The notes below the pieces were generated by a model that did no database searches, was not told where the DNA came from, and saw nothing but the letters and a program-made list of their open reading frames with translations. The translations under genes were made by a program, and so were the position numbers. Positions 6,219-24,001 of a DNA stretch of 32,750 bases are shown here, in pieces (within the stretch, counting starts at the first letter, position 1; each line of letters starts with the position of its first letter). Source of the DNA: an uncultured Lachnospiraceae bacterium (GTDB taxonomy: Bacteria; Bacillota; Clostridia; Lachnospirales; Lachnospiraceae); assembly GCA_947366105.1 (NCBI GenBank), contig CANAZK010000012.1:1-32750 (forward strand). The letters run 5' to 3'.

Positions 6219-6836
6219 TTATTTCACTCTAATATCTTCTTTTATTTTATTGAATACGCCGCTTTTAATTCCCTCGATTTTCATAATATCCTCAATCGAA
6301 CGGAACGCTCCGTTTTCCTCTCTGTACCGTATAATGCTCTCCGCCTTTGACTCTCCGATTCCCGTAAGCGTCATCAGCTCCTCTTTCGCAGCGGTGTTCA
6401 GATTCACTTTACCGGCATCTCCCGGCATCCGTCCTTCCATGCCCGCAGAATTTTCCGATTCCTCTTTTCTTGTTTCTTCTTTAGAGGGAACATAAATTCG
6501 TTCCCCGTCTTCCGTAAGCTCCGCCTGATTCAGATACGTCTCGTCTGCCTCGGATGTCATGCCTCCCGCAGCTTCAACAGCCTCGTAAACGCGGCTTCCC
6601 TGCTTCAGCTCATATACTCCCGGCGCAAAAACCGCACCGCATACATAAACAAACTGAGTTCCAACCTCTTTAAGCTCCTTACCGCTCCCGGCATATTCCT
6701 GAAGTTCTTCCTTCTCTTTTGTATCTTCTTCTGTTGCTTCCTTAAGCGTAAATGTCTCTTTTTCTCTACATCCGCAGCATAAACACAGTACAATGCATAT
6801 TCCCAAACAACACATTTTTCTTATTATGTCCCGCAT
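6219..6836 (-). CDS. comEA: ComEA-family helix-hairpin-helix DNA-binding protein with SLBB domain, predicted lipoprotein
   Basis: SLBB region (FVYVCGAVFAPGVYELKQGSRVYEAVEAAGGMTSEAD) and C-terminal HhH (VNLNTAAKEELMTLTGIGESKAESIIRYREENGAFRSIEDIMKIEGIKSGVFNKIKEDI). The N-terminus has a lipobox-like LCCGC. Confidence 0.92.
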   Translation of the reverse strand: MRDIIRKMCCLGICIVLCLCCGCREKETFTLKEATEEDTKEKEELQEYAGSGKELKEVGTQFVYVCGAVFAPGVYELKQGSRVYEAVEAAGGMTSEADETYLNQAELTEDGERIYVPSKEETRKEESENSAGMEGRMPGDAGKVNLNTAAKEELMTLTGIGESKAESIIRYREENGAFRSIEDIMKIEGIKSGVFNKIKEDIRVK

Positions 6837-6896
6837 AAATTCCTCCTTGTAATTCTTTCGTTAAATTACAATACCCCTCTATGCATAGACATAATT

Positions 6897-6925
6897 ATTG
6901 TAACGAATTTCAGGTTAAAATGCAA
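6897..6925 (-). promoter_or_regulatory. Candidate sigma-A promoter of the comEA operon (TTGCAT-N17-TACAAT)
   Basis: -35 TTGCAT (complement of 6920-6925), 17-bp spacer, -10 TACAAT (complement of 6897-6902). It lies immediately after the ydcZ stop codon. A perfect 12-bp palindrome TCTATGCATAGA (6878-6889) lies just downstream. Confidence 0.5.
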
Positions 6926-7357
6926 CTACTTCCATTGGAAGATTCCGACCCCCGCAAGCGCAATTGCCATGCCGATTACCTTTCTCCATTCAAGCGGCTG
7001 CTTATCCACTCCGAAAAGTCCCATAAGTTCGATTACATAAGCCACGATAAGCTGTGCAATTACAATGAGAAGCGCCGCCTTGGCAGGTCCGAGCATCTCC
7101 ATACTCTTAATAACAGTCCATGTAATACCGGCGCCGATCACACCCCCTAAAAGCACATATTTTGGATGTACTTCGGCAATTGCGGCAATGCTGTCTCTTC
7201 CGGCGATAAACCATGCTGCCGCACAGACCAAAAATGCCGTAAGCTGAACCCAGCCGTTTGACACCCACATTCCCGTTGTTTTCGTAACCTGCGTGTTGAA
7301 TACTCCCTGCACGCTCATAAGCGCTCCCGATATAAGCGCAATAATAAATCCAATCAT
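6926..7357 (-). CDS. ydcZ: DMT-family transporter, YdcZ/DUF606-like
   Basis: 143 aa hydrophobic protein MIGFIIALISGALMSVQGVFNTQVTKTTGMWVSNGWVQLTAF...IELMGLFGVDKQPLEWRKVIGMAIALAGVGIFQWK, typical of single-domain YdcZ proteins. RBS AGGAGG. Confidence 0.85.
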   Translation of the reverse strand: MIGFIIALISGALMSVQGVFNTQVTKTTGMWVSNGWVQLTAFLVCAAAWFIAGRDSIAAIAEVHPKYVLLGGVIGAGITWTVIKSMEMLGPAKAALLIVIAQLIVAYVIELMGLFGVDKQPLEWRKVIGMAIALAGVGIFQWK

Positions 7358-7417
7358 TGGTATTCCTCCTTAGAAAATTTTCCTAACATAAGAATACCCA
7401 ATAATTGGATTTTTATT
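7340..7417 (-). promoter_or_regulatory. Long near-perfect inverted repeat enclosing the ydcZ RBS and start codon
   Basis: Arms 7340-7365 and 7392-7417. In the minus-strand mRNA, AAUAAAAAUCCAAUUAUUGGGUAUUC pairs with GAAUACCAAUGAUUGGAUUUAUUAUU: 25 pairs including one G-U, with two single-nt bulges. The intervening 26 nt contain TTAGGAAAATTTTCTAA and the Shine-Dalgarno. Confidence 0.8.
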
Positions 7418-7423
7418 CCTGAT

Positions 7424-8608
7424 TTACGCTCTCAAAGCCATCTTAAGTTTTTCAATCATCTCGTCCACATGCTCTTTTGTAATCACAAGCGGAGGCAGCA
7501 TGCGGAGAACATTCCCTCCTGCCGAAATAACAATCAAGCCTTCCCGCTGTGCGTTGGCAATGACTTCTCCCACCGGTCTTTCCAAAGCCAGTCCCTGCAT
7601 CAGACCCTTTCCACGCCTAGCCGCCACAGTATCACATTCCTGTACCAGTCCATCTAATTCGGCTTCAAAATAAGCGCTGATTTCCTTTACATGGTCTAGA
7701 ATCTTCTCCTCCTCAAAGATATCAAGAACTGCGCTTACCGCCGCGCATGCAAACGGATTGCCGCCATAGGTTGTTCCGTGGTCTCCCGGCTTTAACGAAT
7801 ATTGGGCAGCTTTCTCCGTCATGGCAAACGCCCCCACAGGCACGCCGTTTCCGACAGCCTTTGCAATACACATAATATCAGGCCGAATACCGTAATCCTG
7901 CCATGCAAACATAGAACCCGTTCTTCCCATGCCGCACTGAATTTCATCTAAGATAAGTAAAATATCCTCTCTGTCACAAAGCTCTCTTACACCTTTTAAG
8001 AAATCAGGGTCAACCGGATAAATTCCGCCTTCTCCCTGAATAGTCTCCATGATAATTGCACAAGTCTTATCCGTTACCTGCGCTTTTACACTCTCAATAT
8101 CATTATATTCCGCAAACCTTACTCCTTTAATAAGCGGTTCAAACGGCGTCCGATAATCCTCCGTACCCGTCACAGATACGGCTCCCATGCTTCTTCCATG
8201 AAAGGAACGGTTCATTGCAATAAATTCATATTTTCCCGATTCCTTTGCATATGCATATTTTCTTGCAGCTTTCAGCGCGCCTTCAATGGCTTCCGTTCCG
8301 CTGTTTGTAAAAAATACCCGGTCCATCTGCGCTGCTTTTTTTAATTTCTCCGCCGCGTCTGCAATCGGCGCCGTGTAGAATAAGTTAGATACATGCAGAA
8401 GCTTATCCACCTGCTCTTTTAACGCCTTCTTATATCTCTCATGACTGTATCCAAGCGAGCACACCCCAATGCCCGCCGCAAAGTCCAAATATTTCTTACC
8501 ATTTACATCGCAGAGATATACGCCCTCTCCTTTATCAAGTATAATCTGATAACGGTTGTAAGTATGCAAAAGAGCCTGCTCCGCTTTTTCAATATAATTA
8601 TTCTCCAT
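7424..8608 (-). CDS. argD: Acetylornithine aminotransferase
   Basis: [56 protein letters not shown]...[21 protein letters not shown]...[14 protein letters not shown]...[17 protein letters not shown]. The ORF track begins at 8626; MENNYIE at 8608 is the more likely start. Confidence 0.95.
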
Positions 8609-9497
8609 GATAAAACCTGCTTCCATCGTTCTTCAAAATCGCTGTTCCAATACCTTTATGCGTAAAGATTTCAAGCAGAAGGCAGTGGGGAATACGTCCG
8701 TCCAAAATATGAACTCTCTCCACGCCGTTCTCAATAGCTTCAATACAATTCTGAAGCTTTGGAATCATTCCTCCGCTGATACTTCCATCCGCAATAAGAC
8801 CTTTCGCTTCATCAACGGTAATTTCCGCAATAATCGTATCCGGGTCAGACGAATCTCTGTACACCCCTTCGATATCGCTTAAAAATGCAAGCTTCTCTGC
8901 GCCTACTGCCTTTGCGATAGCGCTTGCCGCATCATCCGCATTGATATTATATGTATTATATTCATCATCAAGTCCCACGGAGCATACGATCGGAAGAAAG
9001 TCTTTCTCCAATAAATCATATAAAACCGAGGCATTGACGTCTTTCACATCCCCGACAAAACCAATGTCCTCGCCGTCTGTATACTTCTTGTCTACTTTCA
9101 GAAGCGCGCCGTCCTTGCCGCTGATACCGATCGCCCTTACACCGAGGGACTCCACAAGCTGTACAAGACTTTTATTCACCCTCCCCAAAACCATCTCGGC
9201 AATCTCCATTGTCTCAGCGTCCGTCACACGAAGCCCGTTCTTAAACTCCGGCTCCTTTCCGGCTTTCTCCACCCACTTATTGATATCTTTTCCGCCGCCG
9301 TGAACGATAATCGGCTTAAATCCAACCAGTTTCAAAAGTGTCACGTCTTCAATTACATTTCTTTTTAATTCCTCATCGAGCATAGCGCTTCCGCCGTATT
9401 TTACAACGATGATTTTACGGTTAAATCTTTGGATATAAGGGAGAGCCTCGATAAGCACCTCCGCCTTGTCCAAATATTTCTGCATATTGGCTTTCAT
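8598..9497 (-). CDS. argB: Acetylglutamate kinase
   Basis: [39 protein letters not shown]...[16 protein letters not shown]...[58 protein letters not shown] precedes ATG at 9497; the track ORF extends to 9521. Confidence 0.96.
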
Positions 9498-21908: not shown

Positions 21909-23465
21909 ATGAGTATTTTAAATGTTGAACACTTATCACACGGCTTCGGTGACCGAGCCATCTTCAACGATGTTTCCTTCCGTCTTTTAAAAGGAGAACA
22001 TATCGGACTTGTAGGCGCAAACGGAGAAGGAAAGTCCACTTTCTTAAATATCGTTACCGGAAAACTTCAGCCAGATGAAGGTAAGATTGAATGGGCAAAA
22101 AATGTCCGCACAGGCTACCTTGACCAGCATACAGTTCTCGAAAAAGGCATGACTGTCCGCGATGTATTAAAATCCGCTTTTGCCTATTTATTTGAAATGG
22201 AAGAAAAAATGAATGAAATCTGTGACGCTCTCGGGTCCGCGGATGAACATGAAATGGAAGCTCTAATGGAGGAACTTGCCGTCATTCAGGACACACTTAC
22301 GCTTCATGATTTCTATATTATTGACGCCAAAGTGGAAGAAGTCGCCCGTGCACTCGGACTTTTGGATATCGGACTTGACCGTGATGTGACAGACTTAAGC
22401 GGCGGACAAAGGACTAAAGTCCTGCTCGCCAAGCTTCTATTGGAAAAACCTGACATTCTGCTTCTCGACGAGCCGACCAATTACCTTGATGAAGAACATA
22501 TTGTATGGCTCAAACGCTATTTAATTGACTATGAAAATGCTTTTATCCTGATATCACATGATATCCCGTTTTTAAATGACGTAATCAATATTATTTATCA
22601 CATGGAAAATCAGGAACTGACCCGCTATGTAGGCGATTACGACCATTTCCAAACAGTTTACAAAGTCAAAAAAGCCCAGTTAGAAGCCGCATATAAACGA
22701 CAGCAGCAGGAAATCAGCGAGTTAAAAGATTTTGTCGCCAGAAATAAAGCACGTGTTTCCACACGAAATATGGCAATGTCCCGTCAGAAAAAACTGGACA
22801 AAATGGATATGATTGAACTGGCAGCAGAAAAGCCAAAACCAGAATTCAACTTCAAAACAGGACGCACGCCGGGCAGATACATATTTGAAACAAAAGACCT
22901 TGTAATCGGCTATGACGAACCATTGTCCAAACCGATTTCGCTTTCCATGGAACGAGGACATAAAATCGCCCTTACCGGCGCAAACGGCATCGGAAAAACA
23001 ACTTTATTAAAAAGCATTCTCGGACTGATCCCGTCGCTGAAAGGTTCTGTGGAACTTGGCGAAAATTTGCTCATCGGATATTTTGAACAGGAATCCGCTC
23101 CTGATAATAAGACCACATGTATAGAAGAAATTTGGAAAGAATTTCCATCATACACACAATATGAGGTTCGCTCCGCTCTCGCCAAATGCGGACTTACAAC
23201 GAAACACATCGAAAGCCAGGTACGCGTGCTAAGCGGCGGAGAACAGGCAAAAGTAAGACTCTGCAAACTCATAAACCGCGAAACAAATATCCTGCTCCTT
23301 GACGAACCGACAAACCATTTGGATACAGATGCAAAAGAAGAACTGAAACGCGCCCTGCGCGAATACCGCGGCAGCCTTCTTCTCATCTGCCATGAGCCGG
23401 AATTCTACCGCGATGTCGTAAACGAAGTGTGGGATTGCGCAAAATGGACTACGAAAGCTCTGTAA
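21909..23465 (+). CDS. ABC-F family ATP-binding cassette protein (tandem NBDs, no TM domain)
   Basis: 518 aa. Two Walker A motifs (GLVGANGEGKST, ALTGANGIGKTT), two signature motifs (LSGGQRTKV, LSGGEQAKV), and two LLDEPTN motifs. Confidence 0.95.
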   Translation: MSILNVEHLSHGFGDRAIFNDVSFRLLKGEHIGLVGANGEGKSTFLNIVTGKLQPDEGKIEWAKNVRTGYLDQHTVLEKGMTVRDVLKSAFAYLFEMEEKMNEICDALGSADEHEMEALMEELAVIQDTLTLHDFYIIDAKVEEVARALGLLDIGLDRDVTDLSGGQRTKVLLAKLLLEKPDILLLDEPTNYLDEEHIVWLKRYLIDYENAFILISHDIPFLNDVINIIYHMENQELTRYVGDYDHFQTVYKVKKAQLEAAYKRQQQEISELKDFVARNKARVSTRNMAMSRQKKLDKMDMIELAAEKPKPEFNFKTGRTPGRYIFETKDLVIGYDEPLSKPISLSMERGHKIALTGANGIGKTTLLKSILGLIPSLKGSVELGENLLIGYFEQESAPDNKTTCIEEIWKEFPSYTQYEVRSALAKCGLTTKHIESQVRVLSGGEQAKVRLCKLINRETNILLLDEPTNHLDTDAKEELKRALREYRGSLLLICHEPEFYRDVVNEVWDCAKWTTKAL

Positions 23466-23469
23466 AATA

Positions 23470-23540
23470 TGTGAAAAAACTGTGAAAGGGGACGTAGCAC
23501 TTTGTAAGTTTGCTACGTCCCCTTTCACAGTTTTTTCACA
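23470..23540. repeat. Palindromic element copy A: 30-bp perfect inverted repeat with core GGGGACGTAG-N15-CTACGTCCCC; likely bidirectional terminator
   Basis: TGTGAAAAAACTGTGAAAGGGGACGTAGCA (23470-23499), 11-nt loop, TGCTACGTCCCCTTTCACAGTTTTTTCACA (23511-23540), perfectly complementary. Core 23488-23522 is shared with copy B. Confidence 0.92.
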
Positions 23541-24001
23541 ATTTCTTTTCCGTCCAACTCGCACCGAATCAGCTCGTCTCCACGATATTGAAGTTTCATT
23601 GAGAAAAATGGAGCTTCTTTTTTTAGCAAATCAAAAAAAATCCGATCCCCTGTCCATAGATTCAAATTATCTATCTCGTCCTTCGAAACCCATTCTAATG
23701 TCCCTTCATTACAGTCAATAAGTTCTCCTTCAAAACCATCTGCTGTGTAAAGGCAGATATACTCTGACTCATTATCATTAAAATTAAATGTGAGTATCCC
23801 ACGAAACCGGTATGACGTCAACGTCAAACCGGTTTCTTCTTTTACTTCACGGAGCAGGCAGTCCTCCGGGCTTTCGCCCTCCTCGAAATGTCCGCCTACA
23901 CCAATCCATTTATCTTTATTCACATCATTTTTCTTGCTCACTCTGTGAAGCATTAAATATTTGCCGTCCTTCTCGATATAGCATAATGTTGTTAATTCCA
24001 A
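23525..24001 (-). CDS. NUDIX hydrolase (8-oxo-dGTP diphosphatase-like)
   Basis: 158 aa with NUDIX box GGHFEEGESPEDCLLREVKEETGL. The stop codon and last four codons lie inside palindrome A. Confidence 0.93.
   Translation of the reverse strand: MELTTLCYIEKDGKYLMLHRVSKKNDVNKDKWIGVGGHFEEGESPEDCLLREVKEETGLTLTSYRFRGILTFNFNDNESEYICLYTADGFEGELIDCNEGTLEWVSKDEIDNLNLWTGDRIFFDLLKKEAPFFSMKLQYRGDELIRCELDGKEIVKKL

Follow-up and report, generated by a model that had tools for sequence, protein, structure and literature searches.

The external transcripts of the IS10 transposase gene and of lacI-lacZ fold to hide the ribosome-binding site (RBS), whereas the transcript from the gene's own promoter does not. 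In Bacillus subtilis, a hairpin of 20+ bp at sigG (spoIIIG) has been proposed to block translation of mRNA reading through from the sigE operon, whereas mRNA made from the promoter of sigG itself is unable to fold into it (PMC5942855). A second, small leader hairpin of five pairs forms in sigG's own mRNA, where it occludes the RBS with a 2-4-fold effect (PMC5942855). In yeast, LUTI mRNAs are longer, poorly translated isoforms that begin upstream of the productive promoter and also repress transcription at the proximal promoter (PMC8153250).

The argD-ydcZ junction in the window, which is the whole 32,750-nucleotide stretch of DNA analysed here, taken from a draft genome of Lachnospiraceae, can be compared with these systems. 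The minus-strand arginine genes end with argD, followed by ydcZ (Table 1), whose product scores 97.5 bits against PF04657, above the curated cut-off of 24, and thus belongs to the DMT/YdcZ transporter family. Because the two genes are co-directional and a terminator scan of the junction was negative, read-through from argD into ydcZ is possible, and argD is the likely source of read-through mRNA. The stem described in the original prediction was confirmed pair by pair. Nucleotides 7417-7392 pair with 7365-7340 on the minus strand in 25 pairs, among them a single G-U that involves the G of the AUG (7355 with 7403), with two 1-nt bulges at 7345 and 7397, and the stem begins 6 nt after the argD stop codon (7426-7424). 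The inner self-complementary loop segment was also found (7386-7380 with 7376-7370). As predicted, the ydcZ RBS is hidden, the stem covering the end of the Shine-Dalgarno sequence (SD), the AUG and the following codons. The SD lies mostly in the enclosed loop (7371-7365), as had been claimed, but its last G belongs to the stem and most of it is paired in the MFE structure. The MFE of the junction was −33.6 kcal/mol (z −7.38), whereas 200 dinucleotide shuffles gave −14.2 ± 2.6 kcal/mol and never reached so low a value. With its 25 pairs, the hairpin has the 20+ pairs over the RBS that define the sigG-type lock.

Table 1. Features of the argD-ydcZ junction and related sigG loci.
Feature	Position	Strand	Basis
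argD (acetylornithine aminotransferase)	7424..8626	minus	ORF; Pfam PF00202 and NCBIfam TIGR00707 above cut-off
ydcZ, 143-aa membrane protein, DMT/YdcZ family	6926..7357	minus	ORF; Pfam PF04657, E = 1.1e-27
5' arm (anti-RBS arm)	7392..7417	minus	25-bp stem with 7340-7365; covariation in relatives
3' arm: spacer, AUG (7357-7355), first ydcZ codons	7340..7365	minus	sequence, fold
Shine-Dalgarno AAGGAGG of ydcZ	7365..7371	minus	sequence
Inner self-complementary loop segment TTAGGAAAATTTTCTAA	7370..7386	minus	fold
-35-like element GAATA, predicted forespore promoter	7414..7418	minus	alignment to relatives' GNATA
-10-like element GGGTATTCT (relatives: GGATATACT)	7391..7399	minus	comparison with relatives
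Predicted short-mRNA start, about 7 nt past the -10	7382..7385	minus	inferred from promoter position only
sigG loci with spacer complementary to start-codon region	L287 (own genome, G000:C107), L281-L293		

A search of 6600-7700 for an intrinsic terminator, with its GC-rich stem and ensuing U run, was negative, which leaves the earlier suggestion of a partial terminator unsupported. A sigma-70 promoter scan gave nothing on the relevant strand, and a plasmid collection searched with the junction gave no match. The hiding of the SD and AUG by a stem would also suit a riboswitch or an RNA thermometer controlling ydcZ, and a temperature- or ligand-responsive switch had been among the original suggestions. 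However, no Rfam family matched at gathering score in the window, loop sequence and length vary, the stem has a very high stability, and the predicted start site is downstream of the 5' arm, so that we regard such a switch as extremely improbable. The loop also holds an 11-codon frame (ATGTTAGGAAAATTTTCTAAGGAGGAATACCAATGA; 7389-7354, minus strand), with an ATG at 7389 and a stop that overlaps the ydcZ AUG (ATGA). Because it lacks an SD and is situated upstream of the predicted short-mRNA start, we set it aside as a leader ORF; it is probably due to chance. Elsewhere in the window, one of its most stable short folds (−52 to −53 kcal/mol on both strands) sits between convergent genes at about 23445-23560 and is probably a bidirectional terminator.

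For comparison with relatives, we used 110 distinct ydcZ upstream regions, to which 40 more distant ones were later added. In the related ydcZ genes, about 120 in all, the 5' arm has the form of a sporulation-type promoter with the consensus GNATAAAA-AACCRRTCATT-GGATATACTA, in which the spacer forms the reverse complement of the ydcZ start codon and first codons. A GNATA...GG-NN-ATACT element stands 22-107 nt ahead of the start in most of the 110 regions; it consists of GNATAAAA followed by GGATATACT(A), with about 15 nt from NATA to GG. Most -10 positions are 88-98% conserved in the 87 best aligned promoters, and the GG opening the -10 is present in 98% of them. The original prediction had seen no separate promoter in the gap. 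This is probably wrong, since the relatives place one inside the 5' arm, and it is likely this overlooked promoter that gives the hairpin its meaning.

The -35 and -10 of ydcZ are similar to the boxes of sporulation sigma factors, which in the relatives' genomes are like GGTAACACT at spoIIR (sigma-F), CACATACTA at SASP genes (sigma-G) and GCATATACT at spoIVA (sigma-E), the last with a -10 that mostly starts with GC. In C. difficile, sigma-F promoters are distinguished by a G upstream of the -10, and sigma-G promoters by an A downstream of it (PMC3789822). The ydcZ promoters have both marks. From these motifs, namely the likeness of the boxes and the two marks, we infer a forespore-type promoter that is sigma-F and/or sigma-G-like. 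The -10 of the window (GGGTATTCT) reads ATTCT in place of the conserved ATACT, one strongly conserved A being T, and this change also makes the stem longer. The promoter score of the window is 13.9, whereas most relatives score 20-27, and because its -10 breaks one of the best-conserved positions, the window's promoter may be weak or different. It is accordingly conceivable, although unlikely, that the same hairpin works with a promoter that is now inactive in the window or is read by a different sigma factor, such as mother-cell sigma-E, whose promoters here also have ATAA and ATACT boxes; the nearly invariant GG of the ydcZ -10, as opposed to the usual GC at spoIVA, argues against the latter. 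An exact-pattern promoter search of 21 genomes was discarded because its seven sites did not exceed the count of a reversed-pattern control.

Taken with the comparisons below, we consider it probable that the junction stem-loop acts as a read-through lock and that its 5' arm contains a promoter. The argD read-through mRNA would carry this arm, which would pair with the start region of ydcZ (SD, AUG and first codons) and hide it, so that ydcZ should not be translated from it. The putative forespore promoter (sigma-F and/or sigma-G) in the arm would give an mRNA that starts downstream of the arm, lacks the stem and can be translated. Since translation would occur only from the arm-free mRNA, ydcZ output would be confined to the forespore, and the gene would be kept silent until sporulation despite its position behind a vegetative arginine operon.

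The promoter spacer and the start site covary. AACCCGGTCAT pairs with ATGACCGGGTT in L084, TCCCATCAT with ATGATGGGA in L239, and CCTGCC with GGCAGG in L228, while the pair CCGGTCAC and GTGACCGG in L085 contrasts with CCGGTCAT and ATGACCGG in L135. Two of the GTG starts (L085 and L109) pair their G with C. Across 57 aligned sequences, 89.4% of the cells were paired, compared with 34.7-58.5% when the partner was slid. Double-changed cells numbered 58 against 20.9 ± 5.2 in shuffles, and the covariation test score was 0.324 against 0.227 ± 0.009 in the same 57 sequences, whose relatedness means that the shuffle counts are not probabilities. Over 113 loci, a register-free swap test gave −13.0 kcal/mol with own arms against −8.8 kcal/mol with swapped ones, and over the 37 most distant loci the corresponding values were −10.8 and −6.7 kcal/mol; 0 of 10,000 permutations were as low in either set. 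Compensatory change in the upstream arm, the check proposed with the original prediction, was thereby found in the relatives. There were 109 G-U cells and 10 A-C cells, where shuffles give 127 and 29, and much of the excess of G-U over A-C is due to composition. In some distant species (L021, L028 and L236, judged by eye), the promoter pairs with the SD instead. A generic fold-back scan from -130 to -40 without promoter anchoring was weak for ydcZ and too noisy to separate the gene sets.

A DNA-level inverted repeat that serves as an operator, with a regulator binding both promoter and start region, might explain why the promoter spacer is itself partly palindromic (CCAATCATTGG). It appears very improbable, however, because the distance between the -10 and the start codon ranges from 22 to 107 nt, the arm tracks the start codons base by base, G-U included, with 10 A-C mismatches against 29 expected, and the arm is lost where read-through is blocked (discussed below).

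The cost of opening the RBS was modelled for long and short mRNAs, the latter with an assumed start 7 nt past the -10. The modelled median over 97 loci was 20.8 kcal/mol for the long and 6.0 kcal/mol for the short mRNA, and the corresponding values in the window were 23.7 and 6.1 kcal/mol. In this model, own arms contributed +14.9 kcal/mol to the cost, swapped arms +6.3 kcal/mol and shuffled arms +1.7 kcal/mol.

If the arm serves to silence read-through, it should vanish where read-through cannot occur. Counting an arm as present at z ≤ −2, we found it in 0/9 loci where a terminator or an opposing gene precedes the promoter (median z −0.4) and in 120 of the remaining 139 (median z −5.5; Fisher 9e-8, Mann-Whitney 1e-5). 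The nine blocked loci belong to different genera as far as their handles show, except L036 and the window's own group, and because several of them also score poorly as promoters, only about four (L012, L014, L036 and L240) are clean contrasts. In L012 and L036, argD lies upstream, a terminator occupies the gap, and there is no arm. Strong arms and no terminator were found in L013, L015 and L017, where the upstream gene is a solute-binding-protein-like ORF (named by eye from sequence), whereas L014, with an upstream ORF of the same kind, has a terminator of −18.6 kcal/mol and no arm. In L007, from the window's genus, the gene has moved from argD to behind a strong hairpin and the arm is lost; this locus was left among the 139, outside the nine, because its U run is weak. 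Exposed loci without an arm include L105/L222, L234 and L132. L105 (Lachnoclostridium sp. An181) and L222 form an exception, with ydcZ right behind argD and a good promoter but no complementary arm.

These loci also bear on translational coupling, in which ribosomes ending argD would melt the stem, and ydcZ would be translated in parallel with argD. The closeness of the argD stop to the stem in the window, only 6 nt, and the presence of argD upstream in most loci would fit such coupling. However, the arm is kept with an ABC solute-binding-protein-like ORF, argB or another ORF upstream, and with gaps of 60-150 nt to argD; the strict coupling originally proposed is therefore unsupported. A terminating ribosome would get only to the base of the 25-bp stem, and coupling leaves the conserved promoter within the arm unexplained. 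We judge it to be quite improbable, although in the window itself some coupling could operate.

A role of ydcZ in sporulation, as the read-through lock would imply, is consistent with its distribution. The gene is present in 219 of 256 spoIVA-positive Lachnospiraceae genomes and in 7 of 141 spoIVA-negative ones (Fisher 4e-61). Our literature search found no paper linking DUF606/YdcZ to spores. The analysis marks ydcZ out as probably a forespore gene of gut Lachnospiraceae, for which sporulation matters in host-to-host spread.

A similar complementarity exists at sigG in the window's genus, including the window's own genome (L287), where the promoter spacer (e.g. AGAGCCATC) is complementary to the sigG start (ATGGCTCT). 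The duplex of arm and start had z values of −3.8 to −8.9 in 8 of 10 loci of the genus, the exceptions being L284 and L290. SASP genes and spoIIR showed no such complementarity (median z −0.5 and −0.8, respectively). At spoIVB, in the own genome (L310, G000:C114) and in L307, L308, L309, L311, L313, L315 and L316, an intrinsic terminator directly follows a sigma-G-like -10 (CACATACTA). This hairpin has −11 to −19 kcal/mol in full but only −3 to −7.5 kcal/mol from +7. The forespore spoIVB mRNA would start inside the 5' arm of the terminator, by which read-through could be stopped and the gene's own mRNA spared. We tentatively suggest, as a serious possibility, that spore-forming Lachnospiraceae repeatedly build forespore promoters whose sequence is antisense to the start region downstream (as at ydcZ and sigG), or let transcription begin within a terminator arm (as at spoIVB), so that only forespore-started mRNA is productive, as a general means of silencing inside vegetative operons. 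The ydcZ finding itself extends what had been proposed once, for sigG of B. subtilis, to a recurring design that is strongly supported by comparison and in which promoter and start-codon sequences evolve together. It also calls for caution, as RNA-seq signal at such genes in growing cells need not be evidence of protein.

The proposed ydcZ lock has the arrangement that has been proposed for the read-through hairpin of B. subtilis sigG, and sigG of the window's genus is likewise arranged; we place the ydcZ element in the sigG-type kind. It differs in that the gene is another one, the upstream operon is for arginine synthesis, the arm covers the promoter itself, and covariation extends over many genera. 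The small sigG leader hairpin, like the ydcZ stem, occludes the RBS of a forespore gene, but it forms in the gene's own mRNA, whereas the ydcZ stem would form only in read-through mRNA. The protection of IS10 and lacI-lacZ follows the same read-through principle as proposed for ydcZ; it concerns mobile-element and sugar-operon genes and, unlike ydcZ, involves no sporulation promoter. Yeast LUTIs act through upstream reading frames and not through an RBS hairpin. They resemble the proposed ydcZ lock in that the long isoform is poorly translated, and differ from it in that the proximal promoter is repressed as well.
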